From NCBI GenBank assembly GCA_903901425.1, contig CAIURC010000038.1:1-64000 (forward strand): 64,000 bases of DNA, read 5' to 3'. Shown here one piece after another: positions 31,154 through 59,186 of the stretch (positions are counted from its first letter, which is position 1; every line of letters begins with the position of its first letter). The notes below the pieces were generated by a model. The model did no database searches. It saw nothing but the letters and a program-made list of their open reading frames with translations, and was not told where the DNA came from. The translations under genes were made by a program, and so were the position numbers. The DNA is from an uncultured Spartobacteria bacterium. Its GTDB lineage: Bacteria; Verrucomicrobiota; Verrucomicrobiia; Chthoniobacterales; Chthoniobacteraceae.

Positions 31154-31808
31154 GATTCTCGCCCGCAAACTGAGCCGGATTTATTCCCCGACCGTGCGGG
31201 CGTTGGACGGCGTGGATCTGGAGATTCAGCGGGGTGAGATGGTGGCGGTCACGGGGCCGAGTGGATGTGGGAAGAGCACGCTGCTCCACCTGCTGGGGGG
31301 GCTGGACCGGCCGACCGGCGGGGTTCTGGAAGTCGATGGTCTGGCGCTGGAGACAGCCCGTGAGGCGGAGTTGACGGAGTACCGGCGCCGGACCGTGGGG
31401 GTTGTTTTTCAGGCGTTTCATCTGCTGCCGACCATGAGCGTGTGGGAAAATGTGAGTGTGCCGCTTTTGCTCCGGGGTGTGGCACAGGGGGAGGCGCGTG
31501 CGCGGGCGGAACGGTGGGTGGAGTGGGTTGGGCTCTGGGAGAGGCGCAGCCACCGGATCCATGAGTTGAGCGGGGGGCAGATGCAGCGGACGGCGGTGGC
31601 GCGCGCATTGGTGCATGAACCGGCTCTTTTGCTGGCGGATGAACCCACGGGGAACTTGGATTCAGAGAACGCGCGGCAGGTTGTGGAGGTGTTCCAAAGA
31701 ATTGCTTCTCAGTTGGGGACCACCATGGTAGTGGTTACACATAGTGCTGAAGTTGCGGATGCAGCCTCCCGCAGAATTCCCCTCAAGGATGGGCGATTGG
31801 TGGGTTGA
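31152..31808 (+). CDS. ABC transporter ATP-binding protein (LolD/MacB type)
   Basis: This 218-residue ATPase has Walker A (GPSGCGKST, about 36-44), Q-loop (VFQAFHLLP), signature LSGGQMQR, Walker B (LLLADEPTGNLD) and H-loop (VVTHS). The sequence most resembles LolD and MacB ATPases that drive lipoprotein release or MacB-type efflux. No permease gene lies next to it, so its partner must be elsewhere. The ATG at 31152 overlaps the divergent RluA ATG (CATG). The frame extends upstream, but that part is antisense to rluA. Confidence 0.9.
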   Translation: MILARKLSRIYSPTVRALDGVDLEIQRGEMVAVTGPSGCGKSTLLHLLGGLDRPTGGVLEVDGLALETAREAELTEYRRRTVGVVFQAFHLLPTMSVWENVSVPLLLRGVAQGEARARAERWVEWVGLWERRSHRIHELSGGQMQRTAVARALVHEPALLLADEPTGNLDSENARQVVEVFQRIASQLGTTMVVVTHSAEVADAASRRIPLKDGRLVG

Positions 31809-44990: not shown

Positions 44991-46097
44991 ATGCGCATTT
45001 TGATTCTCAACCAGTACGGCGCTTCGGATGACGCGCCCACGGGCAAACTTTTTGGGGAGGTTGCGGAGGACTGGACCAAGGCCGGGCACGAGTGCGAGTT
45101 TGTGTCAGCGGAACGGGGCTACCGAGACCGTTGCGGGGGACGTTGGGGAAGGGAGTTCTGTTCCCTAGCCTCCCTCCTGTGGGGAGGAGTGTCCGCCAAG
45201 CGGGCGGACCTGATCCTCGCCGGCAGTTCTCCTCCCTGTGTCCTGGTGGTTGCAGCGCTGGCGGCAGCTTGGCACGGAGCGGTTCTTGTGCACTGGGCCA
45301 TGGATTTGTACCCGGAGCTTGGGAGCAGGCTGGCAGGCAGGGCGGCTCGGGCTTGCGCGGGAGTCTTGCAGGGATGGATGCGGAGCGCGTATGCCCGCTG
45401 TCAGACCGTGGTGACTCTGGACGGGGATATGGTCCGGGTCTTGGAAGGGTACGGAGTTTCGGCGAGAGTGATCCGTCCTTGGGTGTGCGGGGCGCATTTC
45501 GGGAGGGGGAGTAGTGTCGAGTCGGTTCCGGACGGGGCCGGTGAGCGGCCGTTTTTCCGGTGGGCATATTCTGGGAATTTGGGGCGTGCGCATGAGTGGC
45601 GGACTCTTCTAGAGGCGCAGGCATTGTTGGAGGCTCGAGGGGTTGAGGCGGAACTGGTGTTCCAAGGGGGGGGGGCTGCATGGAAACCTGCCAGCGAGTA
45701 TGCGAGCCGACTGGGGCTTCGCCGGTGCCGCTGGATGCCATATGTGCCTGAGGCCGAACTGGTACCGCGCCTGCTGGGGAACGACTGCCTTGTGGCCACC
45801 CAGTTGCCAGAGGCCAGAGGGTGCCTTTGGCCAAGCAAACTTGCCCTTTTTCTCGGAATGCCGCGTCCCGTTCTTTGGGTGGGGCCGTCTGGGGGCGCTG
45901 TTGCCAAGTTTCTCGAGGGTAAGGAGGGGGTGGGGTGTTATGCGTGCGGGGATATCGAAGGGGTTGCCGACTGGGTGGAGAGGAGGATGGCGCTGGGAAG
46001 TCATGTGGCGCCGGTTCTGGACATGGGGGAGGAGCGGAGCCGAGGGCTGGAGGGCTGGAGGGCGATCCTAGACCAGGTCACCGGGGGGGCTGGATGA
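44991..46097 (+). CDS. Glycosyltransferase, GT4-like (WcaI-type)
   Basis: This 368-residue GT-B enzyme begins MRILILNQYGASDDAPTG and resembles the WcaI group of colanic-acid transferases. A C-terminal donor-binding region is seen from FRWAYSGNLGRAHEWRTLLEA to PSKLALFLGMPRPVLW, but the Glu of the EX7E motif is not clear. The acceptor is unknown. It is the first gene of the long operon and its stop overlaps the sugar-transferase start (ATGA). Confidence 0.8.
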   Translation: MRILILNQYGASDDAPTGKLFGEVAEDWTKAGHECEFVSAERGYRDRCGGRWGREFCSLASLLWGGVSAKRADLILAGSSPPCVLVVAALAAAWHGAVLVHWAMDLYPELGSRLAGRAARACAGVLQGWMRSAYARCQTVVTLDGDMVRVLEGYGVSARVIRPWVCGAHFGRGSSVESVPDGAGERPFFRWAYSGNLGRAHEWRTLLEAQALLEARGVEAELVFQGGGAAWKPASEYASRLGLRRCRWMPYVPEAELVPRLLGNDCLVATQLPEARGCLWPSKLALFLGMPRPVLWVGPSGGAVAKFLEGKEGVGCYACGDIEGVADWVERRMALGSHVAPVLDMGEERSRGLEGWRAILDQVTGGAG

Positions 46098-47512
46098 ATG
46101 GGATGCTGAAAACAGGGGTGCTGGACCCGTGTGCCACCACTGCGGGGGAAGGGCGGGGGTGGGCGTCCGAGAAGAGGGCTTGTGTGCTTCTGGTTCTGTT
46201 GGATTTTTTGGCGAGCGGCCTTTCGGTTCTGGCGGCCTTTTGGTTGCTGCCGCACAGTGAACCGGATCAGGCGCTTCTGGTTCTGAGCCCAGTCCTTCTG
46301 ATGGGGAGTTTGTATGTGGTGGGAGGGTACGACGTGCGGACAGACTTCAGGCGTCTGGATTACTTCAGTGAACACCTCATTGCGGTGGCTGGTGCTGGGG
46401 CTGTCCTGACGCTGTCTACGTACTTGGTTTCCAGTTACCATGAGATCGCGAAACCGAGCCGTCTATTTATCCCGGTGTTGGCATTGGTGTTTCTGGGGGT
46501 CACACTGACTGTTCGGCGCCGTATGGGGGCGGTTTGGAGGCGGAATAGAGGGTCCGAATGGATCTTGGTGTTGGGTTCTGGCGAGAGGGCGCAACGGTTC
46601 AAGGAGGATTACGAGAGGGCAGGCTTGGAGTGGCACCTGAGGTTTGCCTCGCCGGCTCTGGGCGTGGAACCGGGGGAGGGAAAAGGGCCGCGGGGCGGGG
46701 AGGGAGATGTGCGGGAAGTGTTGGAGTCCGGAGGTGACGGCTGCAGAATGGTGGTTTTGGCGTGTCGGATGGAGGAACTGGAGCCGGCATTGGTGGAGCG
46801 GTTGGCTGAGTTGCACTGCGGCCAGACGCCGGTGCTGACGGTTCCTGCGTTTTACGAGGAACAGTGGAGGAGGGTGGAAATTGGGGGGGTGGAACCGGAA
46901 TGGCTGTTTGAGTGCGAGTTCCGGTTGGCGCAGGGGGCTCCGTTCAGCCAGTTGAAACGGATTTTTGATATTGTTTTTTCACTGGGCGCACTGGTGGTTC
47001 TGGCGCCCGTCCTCTTGATTCTGGGGATTTTGGTGGCTTTGGACAGCCCGGGCGGGGCGTTGTTCCGGCAGGAGCGGACGGGGCTTAGAGGGCGGCCGTT
47101 CACCGTGTACAAGTTTCGGACAATGGTGGTTGGTGGGGGGGACGTTTACACGCGGCGCGGGGATCCGCGTGTGACGCGGGTGGGCCGTTGGCTGAGGGAG
47201 ACCCGGTTGGACGAGTTGCCGCAGCTCTGGAATGTGCTGCGGGGTGAGATGAGTCTGATCGGGCCGCGCGCGGAGTGGGTACGATGCGTGGAGGATTATG
47301 CGAAGACGATTCCACACTACCACCTGCGGCATCTTGTGCGGCCGGGCATTACCGGCTGGGCCCAGGTCAACTACGGCTACGGAGAGGGCCGGGAGGATGC
47401 GGTGGCGAAATTCCAGTATGACCTCTATTACTTGAGGTATTTCTCACTGAAACTGGATCTGAGTATTTTGGTGAAAACGGTGTACACCATGCTGGCGAGG
47501 CGGGGTAGGTAA
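46094..47512 (+). CDS. Polyprenyl-phosphate sugar phosphotransferase (WcaJ/WbaP family)
   Basis: This 472-residue enzyme likely starts a lipid-linked repeat unit by moving a sugar-1-phosphate to undecaprenyl phosphate. The N-terminal half has about four membrane segments and a Rossmann-like region, as in WcaJ/WbaP. The catalytic bacterial sugar-transferase domain begins at about residue 280: KRIFDIVFSLGAL, FTVYKFRTM, RLDELPQLWNVLRGEMSLIGPR (in part), and PGITGWAQVNYGYG. These motifs are intact. The ATG overlaps the upstream stop. It is the strongest evidence that the operon makes a lipid-linked polymer. Confidence 0.92.
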   Translation: MNGMLKTGVLDPCATTAGEGRGWASEKRACVLLVLLDFLASGLSVLAAFWLLPHSEPDQALLVLSPVLLMGSLYVVGGYDVRTDFRRLDYFSEHLIAVAGAGAVLTLSTYLVSSYHEIAKPSRLFIPVLALVFLGVTLTVRRRMGAVWRRNRGSEWILVLGSGERAQRFKEDYERAGLEWHLRFASPALGVEPGEGKGPRGGEGDVREVLESGGDGCRMVVLACRMEELEPALVERLAELHCGQTPVLTVPAFYEEQWRRVEIGGVEPEWLFECEFRLAQGAPFSQLKRIFDIVFSLGALVVLAPVLLILGILVALDSPGGALFRQERTGLRGRPFTVYKFRTMVVGGGDVYTRRGDPRVTRVGRWLRETRLDELPQLWNVLRGEMSLIGPRAEWVRCVEDYAKTIPHYHLRHLVRPGITGWAQVNYGYGEGREDAVAKFQYDLYYLRYFSLKLDLSILVKTVYTMLARRGR

Positions 47513-47597
47513 TTGGAGGCGGTTGAACTTATCGCTGGACCTGCCGCGTTCGTGAGGTTTGAGGTTGGGGGTGATCAAGTCGGAAAAAGCCGGGGGA

Positions 47598-49901
47598 ATG
47601 GAGAGAAGGATCCTGATCCTGACGGGGAACCATTTGTGTAACAACCCCCGGGTGTTAAAGGAGGCCCAATTGCTGGCTGAGGCCGGAGCGGAGGTGGTCG
47701 TGCTTGGGGGGTGGACGGACCCCGTGCTGGCTGAAAGGGACCGGCGGTTGCTGCTGGGAAAACCGTGGCGATACGTGCCCGTGGTGGACTGGACCCGTGA
47801 GGATTTTTCGGGTCGGTTGGCCCGCTGTTGGGGCCGGGTGCGCCGCCGGTTGGGGGTATGTTTGTACCGGTGGTTTGGGATTCCGAGCGGTTGGCAACTT
47901 GGATACGCGGGGCCTGAGCTTTTGGAGTCAGGAAGGAAAATGGGGGCCGTGCTGGTGATTGCGCATTCCGAGCAGAGCCTCTGGGCGGCCCGGAAACTGG
48001 CCGGTCCGGCCGGGAAGCGGGTGGTGGTAGGGGTGGATTTTGAGGACTGGTTTTCCGAGGATCTCTCCGTGGATGCCCGTCGGGAGCGGCCGGTGGGGAT
48101 GCTGTGGCGGTTGGAGCACTGGGCAATGGAACACGCGGTGTACTGCACCTGCCCTTCGGAGGCCATGGCAGAGGCCATGGCACGGAAGGCCGGAGGCAGG
48201 CGTCCTTCGGTCGTTTACAACGCTTTTCCGTGGGGGGATCGAAGCCGGATTGGCGAAAAGTTCCAGGATCGGGTGGATTTTTCGCGGGTGTCGGTTCACT
48301 GGTTTTCGCAGACTCTGGGTCCGGGTCGGGGGCTGGAGGATTTGTTCGAGGCAATACCGCTGGTGGAACACGACATGGAGGTGCATCTCAGGGGCGTGGA
48401 GAGCCCCGGGGCGCGCGATTGGATTGCGCAGCGGGTGCCAAAAAATAGCCGGGTGCAGGTGTTTGTGCACGCCGCGGTGGAGCCCGGCGAGTTGCTGGAC
48501 CGGATCTCGGAGCACGACATCGGGTTGGCGAGCGAGTGCCGGGAACCTGCCAGCCGGGATCTGACGGTGACGAACAAGATTTTGCACTATCTCCTCGGCG
48601 GACTGGCGGTGGTTGCCAGTGACACCTCCGGCCAGAAGGAGGTGGCGGAAAAGGCAGCGGGTGCGGTGCGATTGTACAGGGCCGGGGACCCACATTCGCT
48701 CGCGGCTGTCTTGAATGAGTTGGCGTCTTCCATCGAAGGACTGGAGGAGGTGCGCAAGGCGTCCGTGCGCGCCGCCCACGCGTTTTTCTGCTGGGAGCGG
48801 GTTTCGCAAGTGCTGCTGGACCAGGTGGCCAAGGCGTTGAATGAGGCCCGTATCCGGCGCGGGGAACCGGCGCCCGGGTTGCCTGCCTCGGATCCGAAAT
48901 CGGGCCAGGAGCAGGGTGCCGCCTATGACTTGGAGCCCTCGATGGAGGTCTCAGTGGAAGTGTCGGATCCGGTCGGGAGCGCAGGCGCTGGGAACCAAGC
49001 CGGGAACAAAACGGAGGCGAAGGTTGTGGAGGCTGCGTTTGAGGAAATGCTCGAAGCCGAGTTAAAAAGCTCCGGTCCCCCAAGGGAGTCGGGTTTTGGG
49101 GATGGGGAGGACGAGAAAGCGCCTGCGGAGGAGGAGCAACTCGGGTGCGATCTGCCCGGGTGGGGGGCGCGCGTTTGGAGGCGGATGGTTTATCCGGGTT
49201 TGAACCTCCATGTCCGGGTGTGCGGCGGGCTGAGCCGGTACTGGAAACGGGGTCGGCGAAGAGTGCTGGATGCGAGTGGAGGCGGTGGGTATTTTGGCTG
49301 GATCAGCCAACGGACGGGGGCTGAAGTGGTATCTCTGCGGTACTCCATGCGCGACTTGGAGGTGGAACGCCGTTTTTACGGGGGAACCTTGGGGATTTCG
49401 GAGAAGCGGATGCGGTTTGAGCGGCTGTCCCCGGAGGGTTTAGAGGAGGAGGGTCGCGTTTTTGACGAGGTGATCTGTTTTTTTGGCTTGGAGCGGTGTG
49501 CCCGGGATCGGGAAGTGATGGAGGGCTTTTACCGGGTCCTGAAGCCGGGTGGTTTGCTGCATGTGTGTGTGGCCAATCGCGCGCATCCCAAGCACCGGGA
49601 GGAGAACGATTCGGGGCTGTGGCCGCTGGGTTCGGAACGGTGTCGGCCCGGGTACCTGGAGCCTGAACTGCGGCGGTTGGTCAGTACGGCCGGGTTCAAT
49701 CTCGAGTTTCTGGAGGGGGTCGGTTCACCGTGGGTGGATCGCTGGGCAGGTGTCGTGGCATGGACGGGCCGCTGGTTTGGGGGACTGGCTGCTTGGGGAA
49801 CGCTTTTTGTGGCGCGTGGCATGGCGGCTTGGAGTGGGCGGAACCCATTGCGGCCCTATGCGTACTATGCCAAGGCGGCAAAACCGGCGATCCGCGGTTG
49901 A
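47598..49901 (+). CDS. Fused GT4 glycosyltransferase and SAM-dependent methyltransferase
   Basis: This 767-residue protein has two parts. Residues about 1-410 look like a GT4/GT-B transferase (LTGNHLCNNPRVLKEAQLL, SVHWFSQTLGPGRGLEDLFEA). A linker of about 90 acidic, Gly/Pro-rich residues follows. The last 250 residues fit a class I methyltransferase: RVLDASGGGGYFGW (about 555) is an altered motif I, and GFYRVLKPGGLLHV is motif III. It should add a sugar and methylate it or its neighbour. The ATG at 47598 is preferred; a GTG at 47571 and a TTG at 47559 are possible. Confidence 0.8.
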   Translation: MERRILILTGNHLCNNPRVLKEAQLLAEAGAEVVVLGGWTDPVLAERDRRLLLGKPWRYVPVVDWTREDFSGRLARCWGRVRRRLGVCLYRWFGIPSGWQLGYAGPELLESGRKMGAVLVIAHSEQSLWAARKLAGPAGKRVVVGVDFEDWFSEDLSVDARRERPVGMLWRLEHWAMEHAVYCTCPSEAMAEAMARKAGGRRPSVVYNAFPWGDRSRIGEKFQDRVDFSRVSVHWFSQTLGPGRGLEDLFEAIPLVEHDMEVHLRGVESPGARDWIAQRVPKNSRVQVFVHAAVEPGELLDRISEHDIGLASECREPASRDLTVTNKILHYLLGGLAVVASDTSGQKEVAEKAAGAVRLYRAGDPHSLAAVLNELASSIEGLEEVRKASVRAAHAFFCWERVSQVLLDQVAKALNEARIRRGEPAPGLPASDPKSGQEQGAAYDLEPSMEVSVEVSDPVGSAGAGNQAGNKTEAKVVEAAFEEMLEAELKSSGPPRESGFGDGEDEKAPAEEEQLGCDLPGWGARVWRRMVYPGLNLHVRVCGGLSRYWKRGRRRVLDASGGGGYFGWISQRTGAEVVSLRYSMRDLEVERRFYGGTLGISEKRMRFERLSPEGLEEEGRVFDEVICFFGLERCARDREVMEGFYRVLKPGGLLHVCVANRAHPKHREENDSGLWPLGSERCRPGYLEPELRRLVSTAGFNLEFLEGVGSPWVDRWAGVVAWTGRWFGGLAAWGTLFVARGMAAWSGRNPLRPYAYYAKAAKPAIRG

Positions 49902-49922: not shown

Positions 49923-51260
49923 GTGGAAAAGTTGGGGAAAAATGTGGAGGGGCGTGAGATTCCCATGGGGGTCCGCAGGGTCTTGCTTGTAACGGCTTCT
50001 TTTGTGCCGGTGTTCCTGGCGGACATGCAGCGTGCGAGGATGCTGGCTGCAAGTTTGCCCGGGGTCGGGTGTGAAGTGGAGGTCTTGACGGTCTCGCGCG
50101 GGTTTTACCCGGAGGAGGCGATGGATCCAGATGGGGCGAGATTGGAGGTGTATGGAGTGCAGGTGCACGAGGTGGAACCGGAATGGGAGCGGGGATTTCG
50201 TCTGTTGGGGGTGGGATCCGTGGGATGGCGGGCGTTCTGGCCTGTCTACCGCGAGGGAATCCGCCTTCTGGAGTCGGGCCGTTTCGATTTGGTTTATATT
50301 TCAACGGCGCAGTTTGCGTTTTTCTGTCTGGGCAGGCTGTGGAATGAGCGCACAGGGATTCCGTACGTGCTGGATGTGCATGACCCGTGGGTCAAGCCGC
50401 GTGGGGCTCAGGTCAACACCCGGCACCGCTGGAAGCACGCGGTGCAGATGATTCTGGCCGGGCCTCTGGAGGCGTACGCATTTCGTCGGGCAGCGGGCGT
50501 GGTGGCCGTTTCACCGGAGTATCTGGACCGCTTAAAGCGGCGCCTTGGCGGGATGCGGTGTTTTGAGGCAGGCCGTGCCCGGGTGATTCCCTTCGGCGTG
50601 CTTCCATCCGATGTGGAGCTTGGCCGGGAACTGGCGTCGCAGCGGGGATCGCAGTGGGGTTCGAAAGGGGCTGTGGTGGTGTACACGGGAGCCGGGGGTG
50701 GGATCATGGCGTTGGCGTTCGAGAGGATCTGCCGTGCATGGGCGGAACTCAGGCGGCATACTTCGGATTGCAATGTGGCGCTGAAGCTGTACGGGACCCA
50801 GGGAGGTTGGCGGGAGGGGGATCCGAAACTTCTTGAAGAGATCGCGGTCCGGCATGGGCTGGGGGACCTTGTGGCCGAGTACCCGCGTCGGATTGGATAC
50901 GTGAAGACTCTGGAACTGGTGGCTGCGGCGGATGGGTTGATGGTTTTTGGGGTGGAGGATCCCGGGTATATGCCGTCCAAACTTTTCCCGTACGGATGGA
51001 CAGGGAAACCGCTGCTGGCCTGCCTGCATGCGGACTCGGAGGCGGCGGAGTGTTTCCGGCGCTGGCCGGATCTGGGGCAGTTGCTGACATTTCCCGGGGA
51101 CGGAGAGGGGGATGTTGAGAGGGTTCGGGAGTTTTTTGGGCGGGTGCACTCTGGGCGGAGGGAGGAAAGAAGCTGGATTTTGGAGGAGCACGGTTCTGAG
51201 GCGATGGCGCGGGCGCATCGGGAGTTGTTTGAGGAGTGTGTGCGGGGGGGGGCGGGATGA
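49923..51260 (+). CDS. Glycosyltransferase, GT-B fold
   Basis: This 445-residue protein begins with VRRVLLVTASFVPVFLADMQRARMLA, a nucleotide-sugar transferase N-terminus. A donor-side Rossmann domain follows with DVHDPWVKP and a late region of EDPGYMPSKLFPYGWTGKPLLACL, the equivalent of the EX7E motif. A GTG (49923) and an ATG (49965) are possible starts. The stop overlaps the next gene (ATGA). The sugar is not predictable. Confidence 0.78.
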   Translation: MEKLGKNVEGREIPMGVRRVLLVTASFVPVFLADMQRARMLAASLPGVGCEVEVLTVSRGFYPEEAMDPDGARLEVYGVQVHEVEPEWERGFRLLGVGSVGWRAFWPVYREGIRLLESGRFDLVYISTAQFAFFCLGRLWNERTGIPYVLDVHDPWVKPRGAQVNTRHRWKHAVQMILAGPLEAYAFRRAAGVVAVSPEYLDRLKRRLGGMRCFEAGRARVIPFGVLPSDVELGRELASQRGSQWGSKGAVVVYTGAGGGIMALAFERICRAWAELRRHTSDCNVALKLYGTQGGWREGDPKLLEEIAVRHGLGDLVAEYPRRIGYVKTLELVAAADGLMVFGVEDPGYMPSKLFPYGWTGKPLLACLHADSEAAECFRRWPDLGQLLTFPGDGEGDVERVREFFGRVHSGRREERSWILEEHGSEAMARAHRELFEECVRGGAG

Positions 51261-52474
51261 GTGTTTTGTTTGGGCATCCGACGGGAAACCCGAATTCGCA
51301 CCATGCGGCTTTGGCTTACTGGGAAGCGGGAGGGTTGGAGGCCTTCTGCGTCCCATGGGTACCGAGGCGTTGGGAGCTTGATTTTTTGAAGCGGGTGCCT
51401 GGGCTGCGTGGAGTTACAGAGCGGTTGGAACGCCGGAGTTCTCCGGAGTTGTTGGAGTTGCCGCTGGTGGAGGGGCGTCTTGGGGAATGGTGGCGGATGT
51501 CGAGGCGGTTGGCGGGGGTGGGGGCGGCTGGGGTTGCTGAGGAGGCGAATCTTTGGCTGATGAAAACGCTGCGCCGGGAATGTGCCCGGAGCGAAGTCCA
51601 TGCGGTGCACTCCTATGAGGACTGCGCGCTTCTGGCATTTGAGGAGGCGCGCAAACTGGGGAAGGCCTGCATTTATGAGTTGCCGATCGCGTTCCATCGC
51701 GAGTGGGAGGAGCGGCGGTTACGTTTGGAGCGGAGGTTTTCGGATTGGCTGGATGCATCTTCTGTTGGGAGCCAGAGAAGTGGTGCGTCTTCCGAGCAAA
51801 AGGATTTGGAGCTTGAGCATGCGGATCTGGTGCTTGCGCCGAGCGGTTTTGTGCGCAAGAGCGTGGAGCGCTTTTCAGATCGGGAAGTGGCGGTGGTGCC
51901 TTACGGGGTGGATCTTGATTTCTGGAGTTGTGGGGAACCGCGTTTGGATGAGGAGACCGGCCCGTTGCGGTTTGTTTACGCGGGCCACGCCTCAGTTCGG
52001 AAGGGGGTGCCGTTGATGCTTGAAGCGTGGCGGTTGGCGGATTTGAAGCGGGCCGAATTGGAGATGGTGGGGCCTTGGCAGTTGAACCAGCGAACGCGGA
52101 GAGATCTCCCCTCCAGTGTGGTTTGGACGGGGCCGGTTTCCCGTTCGGCCTTGAGGGAACGGTTCAGGAATGCGGACGTCTTTGTGTTTCCATCTTGTTT
52201 TGAGGGGTTCGGTTTGGTGATTTTGGAAGCGATGGCATCGGGTTTGCCTGTGATTGCAACTGATGCGACGGCTGCCCCCGAGATTGTGGATCCAGACTGC
52301 GGTTTGGTGATTCCGAGCGAAAGCGTGGATGCTTTGGTTGCTGCATTTCAGTGGGTTGCTGAACGGCGCGGTTCGCTGCGTGCGATGGGCACTGCGGCGC
52401 GGGTGCGGGCCTCGCAATTTGGCTGGGACCGTTACAGGGAGGCGTTGACGGATGCCGTCACGCGGCTGGGATGA
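51257..52474 (+). CDS. Glycosyltransferase family 4
   Basis: This 405-residue GT-B enzyme has the acceptor-side start GHPTGNPNSHHAALAYWEAG, a donor-binding region RFVYAGHASVRKGVPLMLEA and the EX7E-type motif PSCFEGFGLVILEAMASGLPV. These are strong GT4 features. It overlaps both neighbours by 4 bp (ATGA). Confidence 0.9.
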   Translation: MSVLFGHPTGNPNSHHAALAYWEAGGLEAFCVPWVPRRWELDFLKRVPGLRGVTERLERRSSPELLELPLVEGRLGEWWRMSRRLAGVGAAGVAEEANLWLMKTLRRECARSEVHAVHSYEDCALLAFEEARKLGKACIYELPIAFHREWEERRLRLERRFSDWLDASSVGSQRSGASSEQKDLELEHADLVLAPSGFVRKSVERFSDREVAVVPYGVDLDFWSCGEPRLDEETGPLRFVYAGHASVRKGVPLMLEAWRLADLKRAELEMVGPWQLNQRTRRDLPSSVVWTGPVSRSALRERFRNADVFVFPSCFEGFGLVILEAMASGLPVIATDATAAPEIVDPDCGLVIPSESVDALVAAFQWVAERRGSLRAMGTAARVRASQFGWDRYREALTDAVTRLG

Positions 52475-53646
52475 GCCGGGTTTTTCGGATTGCGGTGGTG
52501 GTGTCGCACCCGGTGCAGTACTATGTGCCGCTCTACCGGCGTCTGGCAATGAGGCCGGATATTGAATTGCGGGTGTTTTACACATGGCACTCCGGGGCGG
52601 GGCCGGTGCGGGACGCCGGTTTTGGCCGGGACGTGGAATGGGACATCCCGTTGCGGACAGGTTACAACTGGGAGTTGGTGGAGAACGTGGCGCGGGATCC
52701 TGGAACGCATCATTTCTTTGGCCTGATCAATCCTGAGTTGGTGCGGCAGGTGCTCTTGTGGGGGCCGGACATGGTGCATTTGACGGGGTACAACTTCTGG
52801 TCGCATTTGACGGGGATGATCGGATTCACGCGTGCGGGCGTCCCTCTTTTGTTCCGTGGGGACTCGCATTTGCTGGATGAGGAGCCGAAGTGGCGGCAGA
52901 TGCTAAAGCGGGCGGTGCTCGGAGCCGTGTACGGGTTGCCCTCGGTTTTTTTGAGTGTGGGGAAGGCAAACCGGGAGTACTGGCGGAAGTTTGGGGTGCC
53001 AGAGGATCGGATTTGTTTCTGCCCGCATAGTGTGGAGGTGGAGAGGTTTTTGGAGCCAGACGCGATTTATGAGCGTGATGCGAGGCAGTGGCGGAGGCAG
53101 TTGGGGATTTCCGAGGACGATTTGGTTTTGCTGTTCGCGGGAAAGTTGATGGCCAGGAAAAGACCGTTGGAACTGATGCGGGCAGTGCGCGATTTGGAGG
53201 GGGTGGTTCTGGTCATGGTCGGGGAGGGAGAACTTGAGGCCACGGTCCGAGCTGAAATGGAGAATTGTCCGGCCCGATACCGGTGGTTGCCGTTTCAGAA
53301 TCAGAGCCGGATGCCGGTGGTCTACCGGTTGGGGGATGTGATGGTTTTGCCCAGTTCTCACGGGGAGACCTGGGGGCTTGCAGTCAATGAGGCGCAGGCC
53401 TGTGGACGGCCAGTGCTGGTCAGTGACGCCGTAGGGTGCGCTCAAGACTTGGTGGTGGAAGGCGTAACAGGTGTGGTGTTTGAAAGAGAAAACTGGGTGC
53501 AACTCCGGAGCCGTGTGGAGGAACTGCGGGCGGGGAGATGGGTTTGGGACCGGGCTGAGATTCGGTGGCGTGCAAAATCGTACTCGATCGAGGCCACAGA
53601 AGAGGCTTTGATGGAAGCGGTAAGGAAGGTGAGGCCCCCCGAGTGA
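52471..53646 (+). CDS. Glycosyltransferase family 4
   Basis: This 391-residue GT4 enzyme shows AVVVSHPVQYYVPLYRRLA, a donor-domain start LLFAGKLMARKRPLELMRA and the EX7E-type motif GETWGLAVNEAQACGRPV. The first two thirds resemble GT4 transferases for deoxy sugars or hexoses. It overlaps the upstream gene (ATGA) and the downstream gene (GTGA). Confidence 0.88.
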   Translation: MSRVFRIAVVVSHPVQYYVPLYRRLAMRPDIELRVFYTWHSGAGPVRDAGFGRDVEWDIPLRTGYNWELVENVARDPGTHHFFGLINPELVRQVLLWGPDMVHLTGYNFWSHLTGMIGFTRAGVPLLFRGDSHLLDEEPKWRQMLKRAVLGAVYGLPSVFLSVGKANREYWRKFGVPEDRICFCPHSVEVERFLEPDAIYERDARQWRRQLGISEDDLVLLFAGKLMARKRPLELMRAVRDLEGVVLVMVGEGELEATVRAEMENCPARYRWLPFQNQSRMPVVYRLGDVMVLPSSHGETWGLAVNEAQACGRPVLVSDAVGCAQDLVVEGVTGVVFERENWVQLRSRVEELRAGRWVWDRAEIRWRAKSYSIEATEEALMEAVRKVRPPE

Positions 53647-55088
53647 CACCAAAAAACCTGATCTGGCTGACATTCCCGCTAGTGCTCTGGATGAACCGTT
53701 CGGGGCCGTTCCTGAGGTATTCGCTCTTGGAGATGGCGGTGTGCCTTGGGATTGGGTGGGCGAGTGTGCGGCCTGTGTTGCGCTGGCTTCGTCAGGGCAT
53801 GCAAACGGTCCCCGCGTTTGAGAGCTACAGCCTGATGCATTTCCCGTACTATTTCATGCCGTACATGGCGGGGCGCGCTGAGTTTCTGCTCTACCCGGAG
53901 TCGGTCCGGTTGCGCGTGGGTTGCATGGTTGTGTTATACCTTTTGGTCGCTGACTGGGTCTTTCTGAGGGTTGTGCGGCGGTGGGGTGCGAGACCGGCGG
54001 CTTCTGGGAGTTGGTTTCTGAGGGAGGTCAAAGGGGTGAGAGATGGGCGTGCGCTCTGGTGGGCGTTCTGGTTCTGGTGTGTCATCAGTGTTCTGATGGT
54101 TCTGGGTTGGATGCCCAACGTGGGAGGCGCGGCGAACATGGTCCGTTCGATGCAGTCGGTGTGCGGATCTGCAGGCAGTTTTTTTCTTTCGCTACGGCTG
54201 GGAGCGGGTCAGTTGCGGCCGATGGAGCGTTTGATGTTCAACGTTTTGCTCGTTGTGGGTGTCCTGTCCTCGCTCGGCACGGGGTTTTTAGTCGGGGGCA
54301 CGATGATGATTCTTACCGCGGTATTGGGTTACACGATGGGATCCGGGCGGGTCCCGGTGTGGGCGCTGGCGGGGAGCATCGCTTTTCTGAGTTTCCTGCA
54401 CCAGGGCAAGTCGCAGATGCGCGAGAGGTTTTGGGATGCGGGCAAGAACTACAGTGAGCGGCAGTACAATCCGTTTGAGGTGTACGGTTACTGGATGGGG
54501 GCGTCTTACCGGACACTGACCCAGAGCGTTGTGGATAGCCAGGGGGAGGGCTTTGTGGAGCGTGCTTCGCTTTTGCGGATGTTAATGATTGTGGGTGCGG
54601 AGGCGCCTGAATTCCGGCCGTATCTGAAGGGAAAGACGTACCTCCAGATTCCGCAGTTGTTTGTTCCGCGAGTTTTGTGGCCGCAGAAGCCTCGGGCGAG
54701 TTTGCCGATGGACACGCTGGGGATTTATTTTGGGGTTCACACGCAGGAAAGTGCGGACTCAACGGCGATTGGTTTTGGCCATGTGGCTGAGGCATGGGCG
54801 AATTTTGGGTGGGTGGGAGTGGTTCTGGCTGGCGGTGGATATGCGCTGTTGATGTCAGCGCCTGCGGTGCTGAGTCTGCGTTCGAGGCAGGAGCAGGCGG
54901 GTTACCTCCTGGGGGTGGTGCTGTTGGGGCAGAGTTTGGATTTGGAGAATGCAGTGGGCACGGCATTGACCGCGGTTTTCCAAAAGCTGTTGCTCGCGGC
55001 GGTGGTGGTACATTTCTTTTCCAGACGGGCAGGCATGGAGCCCTCGGTGAAGGCCGGGCCGGAAGCTGCGGGAACCATTTCAGTATGA
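53643..55088 (+). CDS. Polytopic membrane protein, probable repeat-unit polymerase (Wzy-like)
   Basis: This 481-residue protein has about 11-12 hydrophobic segments. A large loop between about residues 250 and 350 carries charged and aromatic residues (ERQYNPFEVYGYWMGASYRTL, with RVLWPQKPRASLPMDTLGIYF after it). This layout fits a Wzy-type polymerase, and such proteins are too diverged to prove by motif. It starts at a GTG that overlaps the upstream stop (GTGA). The second large membrane protein of this locus is the minus-strand one at 41.8-44.1 kb. Confidence 0.7.
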   Translation: MTPKNLIWLTFPLVLWMNRSGPFLRYSLLEMAVCLGIGWASVRPVLRWLRQGMQTVPAFESYSLMHFPYYFMPYMAGRAEFLLYPESVRLRVGCMVVLYLLVADWVFLRVVRRWGARPAASGSWFLREVKGVRDGRALWWAFWFWCVISVLMVLGWMPNVGGAANMVRSMQSVCGSAGSFFLSLRLGAGQLRPMERLMFNVLLVVGVLSSLGTGFLVGGTMMILTAVLGYTMGSGRVPVWALAGSIAFLSFLHQGKSQMRERFWDAGKNYSERQYNPFEVYGYWMGASYRTLTQSVVDSQGEGFVERASLLRMLMIVGAEAPEFRPYLKGKTYLQIPQLFVPRVLWPQKPRASLPMDTLGIYFGVHTQESADSTAIGFGHVAEAWANFGWVGVVLAGGGYALLMSAPAVLSLRSRQEQAGYLLGVVLLGQSLDLENAVGTALTAVFQKLLLAAVVVHFFSRRAGMEPSVKAGPEAAGTISV

Positions 55089-56161
55089 GAACCGTTGTTT
55101 TTCGAACAGGAAGCCTTGGGGACACCGTGTGTGCAGTCCCGGCTTTCCGGGCGCTGAGGCGTCAGTTTGAGGGGGACGAGTTGGTGCTGCTCCATGACAG
55201 CCCTTGGCGGGGTCGGGTGAGTGCAGCTGAAGTGGTTCGCGGTCTTGGGGTGTTTGACCGTCTGGTGGGATACCGGTCTGGCAGGGGCTGGGTTTCGCGC
55301 GTGGATCTTGCGTTGCGTGTGCGCGAACTGAAGCCTGACCGCGTTGTTTGTCTGCCCCAGCGAATGGAGCAGTGGCAGAGTCTGCTCCGGAAGAAGAGGT
55401 TTTTGGAGATTCTTGGGGTTCGCGAAGTGCTTGGTTTTTCAGATCCCAGACAGATCAACGGGGCCGGTTTGACCGAATCCCGGAGATTGCTGGCCTTGCT
55501 GGCGATCGAGGGGCTGTGTTCGGAGTACCTTGGGTACGGTTTTCCGGTGAACAGTCTGGCGTCTGGCAGGGTGTCGGAGTGGATGGCAGTGCGACGGCAG
55601 GATCGGCGTGTGGTGGTTTTTTGCGGTGGGGGCAAAACTCCTTCGCAGCGGTGGAGTTTGAACCGGTACGGGGAGTTGCTTCGGGAGTTGGTGGAGCGTC
55701 ACGGGGTGTTCGTGGTGGGGGTGGGGACCGCGCGGGAAAGGGAACAGGCGGTTCCGGAGGTGCTCGAGCGAGTGCCAGGCATGGAGTGGATGCCGGCAGG
55801 ATGGAGCGTCTTGGAGATGCTGGAGTTGATGCGGGGTGCGGATTTGTACGTGGGCAACGACACCGGACCCATGCACGTTGCCGCAGCCATGGGGTGTCCG
55901 GTGTTTGCGGTGGTCAGTGCGCGCAATGTGCCGGGAGCGTGGGATCCAGACGTGGAGCCCCGGTGCGTGCTCCGGTTACAGATGGAGTGCGAGGGATGTT
56001 TTCTTGAGGAATGCCGGTTTCCTGGGCAGCCCTGTCTGGACGGAATTGGGCTGGAGTATGCCCGGCATGAGTTGCAGGGGTTTGTGGAGGGGCGGAGCCT
56101 GCTTGGACCTGGAGAGGGGCGGGGCGGGGTCTGGGGACGGAGGAAGGAGGCGGGCTGCTAA
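55085..56161 (+). CDS. Glycosyltransferase family 9 (heptosyltransferase-like)
   Basis: This roughly 358-residue GT-B protein belongs to the ADP-heptose:LPS heptosyltransferase family. The start FRTGSLGDTVCAVPAFRALRR and the C-terminal donor-binding motif VGNDTGPMHVAAAMGCPVFA (about 255) are typical; CGGGKTPSQRWSLNRY also fits. The acceptor is unknown, and in glycan clusters such proteins often use other sugars. Its ATG overlaps the membrane protein stop; the amidotransferase gene follows in 2 bp. Confidence 0.88.
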   Translation: MRTVVFRTGSLGDTVCAVPAFRALRRQFEGDELVLLHDSPWRGRVSAAEVVRGLGVFDRLVGYRSGRGWVSRVDLALRVRELKPDRVVCLPQRMEQWQSLLRKKRFLEILGVREVLGFSDPRQINGAGLTESRRLLALLAIEGLCSEYLGYGFPVNSLASGRVSEWMAVRRQDRRVVVFCGGGKTPSQRWSLNRYGELLRELVERHGVFVVGVGTAREREQAVPEVLERVPGMEWMPAGWSVLEMLELMRGADLYVGNDTGPMHVAAAMGCPVFAVVSARNVPGAWDPDVEPRCVLRLQMECEGCFLEECRFPGQPCLDGIGLEYARHELQGFVEGRSLLGPGEGRGGVWGRRKEAGC

Positions 56162-56163
56162 CC

Positions 56164-58008
56164 ATGTGCGGGATTGGTGGCATCCTTTTTGGAAAGGCTC
56201 GGGTGGAGAATGCGGTGGATCGTGCGCACCGGATGCAGAAGGTGTTGCGTCCGCGGGGGCCGGATGCAGAGGGGTTTGAGGAGTTGAAATGCGGGGTGCT
56301 GGTGCACACCCGTCTTGCAGTTCAGGACTTGAGCGTTGCGGGGGCGCAGCCGATGGGGAGCGGACGGTGGCGGATTGTGTTCAATGGAGAGGTCTACAAT
56401 TTCCGCTCGCTCCGCAGGGAGTTGGAGCGGACCGGGGTCCGTTTTGAATCGGAGAGCGACACGGAGGTGGTGTTGCGTATTTTTGAGTCCGAAGGCGTTG
56501 CGGGGCTGAGGCGGTTGCGGGGGATGTATGCGTTTGCGGCATTGGAGGTGGGAACGGGGCGTTGTTATCTGGTGCGCGACCCGCTGGGGATCAAGCCGCT
56601 GTACTATGCGGTGGCCGGCGGTGCGCTGGTTTTTGCTTCGGAGTTGAAGGCGGTAATGGCGTCGGGATTGGTGGAGCCGCGTGCGGATCCCGACGGGGTA
56701 TGCGGTTTTTTTCTGGCGGGTTCGGTGCCTGAGCCATCGACGTTGGTGGAAGGGGTGAGGATGTTGCGGGCCGGGCACTGGTTGAAGTGGGAGTGCGGCG
56801 GGGTGGAGGAGGTCAGCCACTGGAGGTTGGAGGTGGAGGAGTCGGATGTGGGTTGGGGAGCGGCCGTGGAGCGGGCGCGTGGTGCGCTCCGGGAGACTGT
56901 GGAGCGGCATTTGGTGAGCGATGTTCAGCCGGGGTTGTTTTTGAGCGGGGGCCTGGATTCGGCGGCGGTGCTGGCAATGGTGCATGGGCTGGGGGGGCGT
57001 GGAATGCGGACATTTTCGATGCGTTTTTCTGAGGAGGGGTACGACGAGGGGGGACTTGCGCTGAAGAGCGCGCAGCGTTTTGGAGCGGAGCATTCCGAGT
57101 GGGAGATTAGCCCTGCCGAGGCGCTGGAAATGTTTGAGGAATACATGGGCGTGATGGACCAGCCCACGATTGACGGGTTTAACACCTTTGTGGTGAGCCG
57201 GTTTGCGCGGCGAAGCGGCGTGAAGGTGGCGCTTTCAGGGATTGGCGGGGACGAGGTGTTCGGGGGGTATCCCTCATTCAAGTGGGTTCCTTTCCTTGTG
57301 CGGACAGGCCTGTGGGCCAGTCGCAGCGCTGGGCTGGGGAGATGGATGGGAGGACAACTCCGCCGGAGGGGCGGAGGGCGGTGGGCGCGGCAGGGGGAGT
57401 TTCTTTGCGGAAAACCCAGTCTGGAGCGGGCGTACGGGGCGTTCCGCGGGATTTTTCTGCAATCCGAGGCTTTGGATTGGACCCGTCGACTGTGTGGAGG
57501 GCGTCTGGGGGCGGTTTTTGGGGATGACTCCTGGATGTTGGAGAGGCAGGTGGGCCCTGTGGATGTGGGCCGGATGGAGGTGGAACGGTATCTGCGCAAC
57601 CAATTGCTGAGGGACAGCGATGTTTTCAGCATGGCCTCCGGCGTGGAATTGCGGACGCCTCTGGTGGACCGGACATTCATGGAGGCGCTTGCAGCGATTC
57701 CTGCCCGCTGGCGGTTTGCGCCAAAGAAGAGGCTGCTTCAGGCGGCAGTCCCTGAAATTCCCGAGGCGGTTTTGAAGGGGGTAAAGCGGGGGTTTTCGTT
57801 TCCGTACGCTGCGTGGTTGAAGCGGGAATGGTCCGGGGTGTTTGTGGAGAGCGAGAAATACTGGAGTGGCCTCGGGTTTGGGGATGTGTCCCGCCGGAGT
57901 TGGTTCCAGCGGTGGGCGCTGGCGGTTCTGAGGGAGAAGCTGAATGGGCTGGGAGTTGTTCCCGAATTGGTGTCAGGCTCTGCCGTGTCCGCCCCGAATC
58001 CCCCATGA
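56164..58008 (+). CDS. asnB: Asparagine synthase (glutamine-hydrolysing) family protein
   Basis: This 614-residue enzyme joins a class II glutaminase domain (Cys2 in MCGIGG, RGPDAEG, NGEVYN) to a synthetase domain with the PP-loop FLSGGLDSAAV (about 260) and GIGGDEVFGGYPSF. The motifs are intact, so it should use glutamine and ATP to make an amide. In exopolysaccharide clusters such proteins often amidate uronic acids rather than make free asparagine, which is my preferred reading. The stop overlaps the next glycosyltransferase (ATGA). Confidence 0.88.
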   Translation: MCGIGGILFGKARVENAVDRAHRMQKVLRPRGPDAEGFEELKCGVLVHTRLAVQDLSVAGAQPMGSGRWRIVFNGEVYNFRSLRRELERTGVRFESESDTEVVLRIFESEGVAGLRRLRGMYAFAALEVGTGRCYLVRDPLGIKPLYYAVAGGALVFASELKAVMASGLVEPRADPDGVCGFFLAGSVPEPSTLVEGVRMLRAGHWLKWECGGVEEVSHWRLEVEESDVGWGAAVERARGALRETVERHLVSDVQPGLFLSGGLDSAAVLAMVHGLGGRGMRTFSMRFSEEGYDEGGLALKSAQRFGAEHSEWEISPAEALEMFEEYMGVMDQPTIDGFNTFVVSRFARRSGVKVALSGIGGDEVFGGYPSFKWVPFLVRTGLWASRSAGLGRWMGGQLRRRGGGRWARQGEFLCGKPSLERAYGAFRGIFLQSEALDWTRRLCGGRLGAVFGDDSWMLERQVGPVDVGRMEVERYLRNQLLRDSDVFSMASGVELRTPLVDRTFMEALAAIPARWRFAPKKRLLQAAVPEIPEAVLKGVKRGFSFPYAAWLKREWSGVFVESEKYWSGLGFGDVSRRSWFQRWALAVLREKLNGLGVVPELVSGSAVSAPNPP

Positions 58009-59186
58009 AGGTTCTGCATGTCATTCCCTCAATTGCCCCGGTGCACGGGGGGCCCAGTGCTGCTCTGCCGGTGATGGCAGCGGCGTTGGAGCGCGCTGGC
58101 GTGGACGTGGACGTGGTGACCACCGATGACGCAGGTCCCGGACGTCGGTTTGCAGGCATTGGATCCGGTTGGGTCGATGAGTCTTGGGGACGGTGCCGGT
58201 ACTTTCCAAAGCAGACGGATTTTTACAAAGTGTCCGTGCCCATGTTGCTCTGGCTGCTGCGGCACGTCCCGGATTACGATGCGGTCCATGTGCACGGTTT
58301 GTTCTCCTTTCCGAGTACCGCTGGAGCGTTTGCGGCGCGCGTCCGCGGGGTGCGGTATTTTGTGAGGCCGCTCGGCGTTTTGAATCAGTGGGGGCTTCGC
58401 AACCGGCGGCGCTGGCTGAAGCGGGTTTCCATGGAGTTGCTGGAGTTGCCGCTTTTGGCGGGAGCCGCGGCAGTGCAGTACACCACACGTCAGGAGGAGA
58501 TGGAGGCGCGTCTTTCCGGCGTTTCAGCCCGCGGGGTTGTGGTTCCCATCGGCCTTGATCTGGAGACTTACCGGCCTTGTAGAAATCCGGAAGATTTCGG
58601 ATTTTTTTTTCCGCAACTCTCCGGCAGCAGGGTCGTCCTTTTTCTTTCAAGACTCGACCGGAAGAAAGGTCTTGAGGTGTTGCTTGAGGCGTTTGCCCGA
58701 CTGCGGACGGGGGAACCCGATGTCCGGTTGCTGGTGGCTGGGGACGGTGAACCCGCTTATGTAGAGAGCCTCATGCGACGGGCGGAAACGCTGGGCCTCG
58801 GCGAAACCGTTTTGTGGGCAGGTTTTTTGGAAGGCGGTGCCAAGATTGCAGCGTTGCAGGGGGCGCGGGTTTACTGTCTGCCCTCGTACTCCGAGAATTT
58901 TGGGATTGCTGCAGTGGAAGCGATGGCTTGTGGGATTCCATGCGTGTTTACGCCGGGGGTTGGGATTGCGCGGGAGGCGGAGTTGGCTGGTGCGGCGTTG
59001 GTGGTTCCTGCGGAGAGCAGGCGGTTGGAGGAGGCGCTGGGGAGTTTGTTGAGGAGTCCAAGGAGGGCAATGGAGATGGGGGAGCAGGCGCGCTGGATGG
59101 TGGAGCGGGAGTACTCGATGGCTGGGATGGGGGCGGGGTTGAAGGCGATGTACTGCGGGGAAAACCTTGGGGAGGTGCCTGCGTGA
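58005..59186 (+). CDS. Glycosyltransferase family 4
   Basis: This 393-residue GT4 enzyme begins MKVLHVIPSIAPVHGGPSAA, the typical GT4 nucleotide-sugar transferase start. It continues through FLSRLDRKKGLEVLLEAFARL to PSYSENFGIAAVEAMACGIPC (the EX7E motif). The stretch from the first motif to GLDLETYRP is continuous and well conserved. It overlaps the amidotransferase stop (ATGA) and the next gene start (GTGA). Confidence 0.92.
   Translation: MKVLHVIPSIAPVHGGPSAALPVMAAALERAGVDVDVVTTDDAGPGRRFAGIGSGWVDESWGRCRYFPKQTDFYKVSVPMLLWLLRHVPDYDAVHVHGLFSFPSTAGAFAARVRGVRYFVRPLGVLNQWGLRNRRRWLKRVSMELLELPLLAGAAAVQYTTRQEEMEARLSGVSARGVVVPIGLDLETYRPCRNPEDFGFFFPQLSGSRVVLFLSRLDRKKGLEVLLEAFARLRTGEPDVRLLVAGDGEPAYVESLMRRAETLGLGETVLWAGFLEGGAKIAALQGARVYCLPSYSENFGIAAVEAMACGIPCVFTPGVGIAREAELAGAALVVPAESRRLEEALGSLLRSPRRAMEMGEQARWMVEREYSMAGMGAGLKAMYCGENLGEVPA

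Follow-up and report, generated by a model that had tools for sequence, protein, structure and literature searches.

The window analyzed here covers bases 1–64,000 of contig C38 (77,736 bases in all), which belongs to a 5.10-Mb genome assembled in 224 contigs. An open frame at 47598–49901 runs without internal stops from an ATG at 47598 to a stop codon at 49901; an alternative in-frame TTG lies at 47559. The earlier note read this frame as a fusion of a GT4-type glycosyltransferase (GT), an acidic linker, and a class I methyltransferase (MT). The frame, Pfam searches, and AlphaFold modeling confirm that description for an MT-fold domain, with a linker of ~98 residues. The parts of the fused gene are as follows.

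47598..49901, + strand: fused coding sequence, 767 amino acids, GT4-type glycosyltransferase plus acidic linker plus class I MT-fold domain (open frame, Pfam, same architecture in a second genome, G005)
47598..48881, + strand: GT4-type domain, residues 1–428 (Pfam and invariant columns)
48882..49175, + strand: acidic linker, residues 429–526, predicted to be disordered (composition, pLDDT)
49008..49070, + strand: predicted linker helix, residues 471–491, low confidence (AlphaFold; comparison with G005)
49176..49898, + strand: class I methyltransferase-fold domain, residues 527–767 (Pfam, AlphaFold, Foldseek/VIA-align)
49263..49295, + strand: motif I, VLDASGGGGYF (alignment)
49338..49340, + strand: Arg581, position after strand 2 (alignment)
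49479..49496, + strand: FFGLER, residues 628–633, replacing xEVLEH, His gone (alignment)
49599..49646, + strand: rearranged loop replacing EVLD..E.GGHVR (alignment, low pLDDT)

Pfam places Glyco_transf_4 at residues 23–209 (29.6 bits against a cut-off of 28.5) and Glyco_trans_1_4 at residues 244–376 (27.1 bits against 27), both barely above threshold, and Methyltransf_23 at residues 540–702 (32.6 bits against 27). Among the nine Pfam families listed for the protein, Glyco_trans_4_4, Methyltransf_12, and Methyltransf_31 fall below their cut-offs. The fused gene is part of a glycan cluster; the other genes of its surroundings in the window are listed below.

39489: nucleotide-sugar dehydratase/epimerase type gene (Pfam)
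40790: RmlD-like open reading frame (read by eye)
46088..47512, + strand: EPS-type polyprenyl glycosylphosphotransferase gene, upstream of the fusion (TIGR03025, 327 bits against a cut-off of 296)
49923..51260, + strand: GT4-type gene, downstream, 21 bases past the fusion (Pfam)
51257..52474, + strand: GT4-type gene, in a conserved run with the preceding one (Pfam, comparison)
52471..53646, + strand: GT4-type gene, in a conserved run with the preceding two (Pfam, comparison)
53565: 507-amino-acid open reading frame, no Pfam match
54794–56161: frame of a GT9 gene (part scanned starts at 54938)
56164: asparagine synthase type gene
57813–59186: frame of a further GT4-type gene (part scanned starts at 57996)
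59868: carbamoyltransferase gene

When a Wzm-like protein from genome G003 was used as a probe, no match at E 1e-3 was obtained across the contig, the window included. The Wzt-like protein of G003 gave one distant match (26%) in the same sequence, at 31200–31799.

The glycosyltransferase domain and the linker

The GT of the window retains all 37 columns that are invariant in 13 free (unfused) relatives. This count and the GT tree are based on 15 rows, two fused and 13 free (39–50% identity); other relatives, some near 39% (e.g., G379) and others nearer 27–37%, were left out of the set. The EX7E motif expected of GT4 enzymes was located by eye and presumably lies at GT residues 326–332 (NKILHYL, 48573–48593). 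Its second Glu is replaced by His in the window and by His or Gln in all 15 aligned rows, the 13 free proteins included; judging by the alignment, the change is a trait of the subfamily rather than of the fusion. Because this Glu is absent, we call the protein GT4-type only and do not file it under CAZy family GT4.

The 98 residues of the linker include 22 D/E against 7 K/R, and 43 are G, S, A, or P. AlphaFold pLDDT per ten residues is mostly 26–39, but 51 at 481–490; it stays below 50 over residues 427–478 and 488–532. The model predicts disorder apart from the low-confidence helix at 471–491. This helix (AAFEEMLEAEL) is the only one predicted in the linker and has a counterpart, ASFDDVLEGAL, in the otherwise poorly alignable linker of G005; it may serve as a docking motif. 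The G005 linker is longer (183 residues by the same bounds). The codon-position GC of the window's linker resembles that of the flanking domains, and the linker is coding-like in both genomes.

Origin of the fusion

An order-level search at E 1e-10 returned matches in seven of 213 genomes, and a class-level search returned matches in 37 of 384. G005, which belongs to the same genus as the window's genome, contains the same architecture in one frame of 845 amino acids; the two proteins are 37% identical across 849 columns. In the 15-row GT tree they group together as one clade (support 100/98), and the clade of the fused MTs has weaker support in the MT tree (71/92). Because the fused GTs fall in one clade, a single fusion event suffices.

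In G228, a genome of another family, GT and MT are encoded by separate genes on L052, where the GT stop (7077) and the MT ATG (7063) have 13 bases between them; after the MT gene come relatives of the three GT genes that lie directly downstream of the fusion in the window. A search of named genomes with the MT alignment profile identified six loci, namely G005, G228, two from Burkholderiales, one from Elusimicrobia, and one from Acidobacteria; the full fused protein as query found no relative among the named genome contigs. At the four new loci (Burkholderiales, Elusimicrobia, and Acidobacteria), no GT is fused to the MT. The two genes adjoin in Burkholderiales SJ335, and relatives of the 49923..51260 gene come after the separate MT gene here as in G228. 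In Burkholderiales MAG26, GT and MT are separated by two genes, one acyltransferase-like (by eye) and one for a zinc-ribbon-type MT. The Elusimicrobia contig (6.8 kb), on which no close relative of the fusion's GT was found, contains a zinc-ribbon-type MT, 61% identical to that of G003, directly 5' of the MT. The sole GT relative at the Acidobacteria locus is distant (27%) and lies ~4.6 kb off. In a phylum sample, three of 387 genomes matched the MT profile at E 1e-15 (the window's genome, G776, and G784), and the order of G228 supplied no extra free MT (one match in six genomes, G228 itself). The genomes searched thus contain two fused and seven free MTs. Because the free MT is common and the genes are separate neighbors in G228 and SJ335, we regard the fusion as the derived state.

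The MT gene that directly follows the GT gene in G003 was considered as a split orthologue and rejected; it is of the zinc-ribbon-like type and only 24% identical to the free MT. In G003 this gene stands alone after the GT (L021:8607–9377). Elsewhere a zinc-ribbon-like MT gene lies directly 5' of the free MT (L072:566–2073 and L075:7159–8711), and the two may act as a pair. The G005 fusion has an acyltransferase gene (PF01757) on one side, with a wzm-like gene farther out, and a wzt-like gene on the other; the GT run of the window is absent. The wzm and wzt genes flanking the G005 fusion were read by eye, as were those near the GT of G003, where on L021 ABC_tran scores above and Wzt_C below cut-off. 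A run of GT genes resembling the window's (types 49923, 51257, and 52471) is present in Burkholderiales and Elusimicrobia MAGs (L070, L072, L073, and L075), which suggests that the cluster moved between phyla or that contigs were mis-binned.

Other partners of the GT subfamily were surveyed in 33 genomes besides that of the window, each with a GT match of >900 bases and flanks of mostly 1.5 kb only. A GT relative in G076 (28–30% identity) is fused to a PIG-L/LmbE de-N-acetylase in a protein of 715 amino acids (L023:1604–3751, – strand; PF02585, E 5e-23). A PIG-L gene lies within ~210 bases downstream of the GT in five genomes (G344, G270, G417, G265, and G285) and 1.0–1.5 kb from it in three more (G405, G294, and G314). 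The MT family is fused in one surveyed genome (G005) and adjacent in one (G228). The GT subfamily repeatedly adjoins a sugar-modifying enzyme and is fused with one at least twice.

The methyltransferase-fold domain

The earlier note proposed that absence of a Rossmann SAM fold would refute the MT assignment. An AlphaFold model of the domain, built from a seven-row alignment, predicts a seven-strand Rossmann fold (pLDDT 87.7, pTM 0.85), which argues against such an absence. Among the matches listed by Foldseek and VIA-align are CmoM (4htf; Z 19.6, rmsd 3.7, 223 aligned), RebM (3bus; Z 17.7), and UbiG (4kdr; Z 17.5). All of the listed matches are MT-fold proteins, and one from Foldseek, SpnF (4pne), is titled a [4+2]-cyclase; the MT fold can therefore carry a different function. 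Both fused MTs pass the Methyltransf_23 cut-off and match the profile of the free MTs at E 6e-59 and 4e-76 (set of three sequences). Against solved structures, this profile detects MitM (1e-12), RebM (6e-10), and D-glucose O-MT (1e-8), with 3mgg and CmoM falling between these in the ranking. RebM, MitM, and AtmM (PDB 3bus, 8zc8, and 6uv6), which act in natural-product pathways, are among the closest solved sequences to the profile. They are single-domain enzymes. The fused domains lack the His that aligns with the LHH stretch of RebM.

Motif I reads VLDASGGGGYF, in agreement with the earlier note. G005 and the five closest free relatives have VLDAGSGNGY or VLDAGSGNGW, the motif being intact in G005; in the window, the first Gly is changed to Ser and the Asn to Gly, and Asp558 and two of the three Gly residues are retained. 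In the alignment with UbiG, the Ser corresponds to Gly64 and Arg581 to Asp85, the ribose-binding acid after strand 2 according to the published SAH contacts of UbiG (PMC4796655). The earlier note had named a conserved acid at this position as support for a SAM pocket; Arg581 occupies it instead, with Val in G005, Asn in five free relatives, and Ser in two. RebM likewise has no acid after strand 2 (GISISRPQ). Because the seven free relatives also lack it, the acid does not discriminate within the free-MT family, and we dropped it as a test of SAM binding.

The MT set used to find invariant columns comprises nine rows, two fused and seven free, which are all relatives found at the thresholds used; nine weaker MT matches from the search of the window's genome were left out. 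Of 63 columns invariant in the seven free MTs, 23 are lost in the window and 16 in G005, 11 of them in common (hypergeometric P 0.003). The common losses are the N and Y of NLY, the E and H of EVLEH, the L and D of EVLD, the E, G, H, and V of the E.GGHVR stretch, and a C-terminal V. The loss of 23 of 63 columns in the window's MT versus none of 37 in its GT differs at a Fisher P of 4e-6 (seven versus 13 free rows). In a leave-one-out comparison, free MTs retain 89–100% of invariant columns and the fused MTs 63% and 75%. The lost His of EVLEH aligns with the His at UbiG residue 134 and the second His of the RebM LHH stretch. In WbdD, two His residues are described as surrounding the methyl group, and RebM and NodS are said to have a pair of His or of Tyr at that place (PMC3482155). 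By analogy with UbiG, WbdD, and RebM, several of the lost residues would be expected in the cofactor and acceptor pocket.

End branches in the MT tree are 1.64 for the window, 0.95 for G005, and 0.23–0.77 for the seven free rows. We compared MT and GT end branches on a fixed five-taxon tree, whose taxa (window, G005, G228, SJ335, and MAG26) are all the genomes in which both genes were detected; the Acidobacteria locus, with its distant GT relative, was left out. The MT/GT ratio is 5.15 in the window (bootstrap 5–95% 3.20–8.37, 40 resamples), 0.70 in G005, 0.55 in G228, 0.35 in SJ335, and 1.06 in MAG26, and the G005 value falls within the range of the unfused pairs (0.35–1.06). A search of the window's genome for a canonical replacement copy, with the MT domain as query at E 1e-5, returned the fused gene as the sole match; Methyltransf_23 occurs at 15 places in this genome, and the one on the window's contig is the fused gene.

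The G005 fusion (L020:8443–10980, – strand) has lost invariant residues at both ends. Its GT lacks 10 of the 37 invariant columns (e.g., NK replaced by EQ) and has a long branch (1.19). The whole G005 protein has thus drifted and may be non-enzymatic at both ends; an intact GT with a lost MT fits only the window's member.

Function of the fused protein

The reading that we favor, and consider moderately probable from sequence comparison, is that the window encodes a GT that works and an MT domain impaired in catalysis, the latter kept as a tethered, non-catalytic module. Comparison shows that a GT4-type gene and its downstream sugar MT gene, neighboring but separate in other lineages, became joined in a single event in a shared ancestor of G005 and the window's genome, with a disordered acidic linker between the two domains. 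The GT of the window would be constrained and probably active and, given its family and context, would add one sugar to a lipid-linked glycan. The MT has kept its fold and, by alignment, has lost residues that never vary in the free relatives, so that it most likely transfers no methyl group. The module might persist because it, for instance, retains the growing glycan or docks neighboring transferases. A more specific form, which we put forward tentatively, is that the pseudo-methyltransferase was recruited, once catalysis was lost, as a glycan-binding or docking module that, like a carbohydrate-binding module, keeps the acceptor beside the GT. The GT subfamily would then be one that acquires sugar-modifying partners (MT or PIG-L deacetylase) time and again, through adjacency and fusion.

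The main rival to a degenerate module is an MT that is active but altered. The GT would add a sugar that the MT methylates at once, with the substitutions reflecting a new acceptor. The retained fold, the two remaining motif I glycines, and the adjoining free genes are consistent with such a bifunctional enzyme, and active GT-MT fusions exist in WsaE and Klebsiella O7 ORF6 (PMC2943079, PMC11231755). Both fusions nonetheless lack the EVLEH His, the N and Y of NLY, GHV, and the LD of EVLD; in the window, Arg occupies the ribose position, motif I contains a Ser, and the MT has evolved at an accelerated rate. We consider an active bifunctional enzyme unlikely; some residual or altered MT activity is possible, the fold being retained.

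The MT domain might instead be a useless remnant that is still attached and in decay, as the fast MT branch of the window and the lost conserved residues would suggest. Against this stand 241 codons without a stop and with coding-like codon-position composition, 39–41% identity between the two fused MTs with few short indels, and the confidently predicted fold, although the alignment behind that model took in free relatives; we find such a passenger rather improbable. A frameshift or assembly error joining two genes, which the separate genes in G228 and SJ335 and an assembly of 224 contigs might bring to mind, deserves hardly any credence, as G005 has the same fusion with a longer, coding-like linker and the three forward frames of 49300–49760 hold no free-family motifs outside the gene's own frame.

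The degenerate-module reading bears on two proposals of the earlier note. The note suggested that the sugar added by the GT is methylated at once. A functional link between GT and MT is supported because G228 and SJ335 carry the two as unfused neighbors in a glycan cluster of the same kind, but the lost residues and an MT/GT ratio of ~5 argue against methylation itself. The degenerate sequence also argues against the further suggestion, that methylation perhaps caps a chain end. Capping has precedents in WsaE, WbdD, and O7 ORF6, but the MTs there are active, and the systems are of the ABC-transporter (Wzm/Wzt) kind (PMC2943079, PMC3482155, PMC11231755); the window's contig gave no wzm match and one distant wzt match.

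GT-MT fusions are already known. WsaE of Geobacillus stearothermophilus has an N-terminal MT that methylates rhamnose (a 2-O-methyl cap) and two rhamnosyltransferase domains (PMC2943079); it shows the same union of GT and MT in one polypeptide of a polysaccharide cluster, whereas the fusion here has one N-terminal GT4-type domain and an apparently degenerate C-terminal MT. ORF6 of Klebsiella pneumoniae O7 is described as an N-terminal MT-kinase, a coiled coil, and two GT2 modules in a Wzm/Wzt locus (PMC11231755). It is likewise a multidomain MT and GT with a spacer between; in contrast, no Pfam kinase domain is present here, the linker is acidic and predicted to be disordered, and the contig has no wzm match. 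WbdD of E. coli O9a combines MT, kinase, and coiled coil, WbdD of O8 lacks the kinase, and both act in chain termination (PMC3482155). WbdD shares with the fusion a class I MT fold in glycan assembly, and the same paper names NodS and RebM as closest to it (PMC3482155). What sets the window's fusion apart is the order of GT4-type domain first and MT last, an acidic, predicted disordered linker, and an MT that is apparently degenerate. Our literature search, judged by titles, returned no description of a GT fused to a degenerate MT, a statement that extends no further than that search.

One practical lesson is that a fused MT named by Pfam above cut-off is not proof of an O-methyl sugar or of chain capping. 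Within one kind of glycan cluster, the loci form a traceable series that starts with neighboring genes, passes through a fused protein, and arrives at a partner domain that is apparently degenerate. This series raises the question of how a GT benefits from an attached MT fold that no longer methylates.
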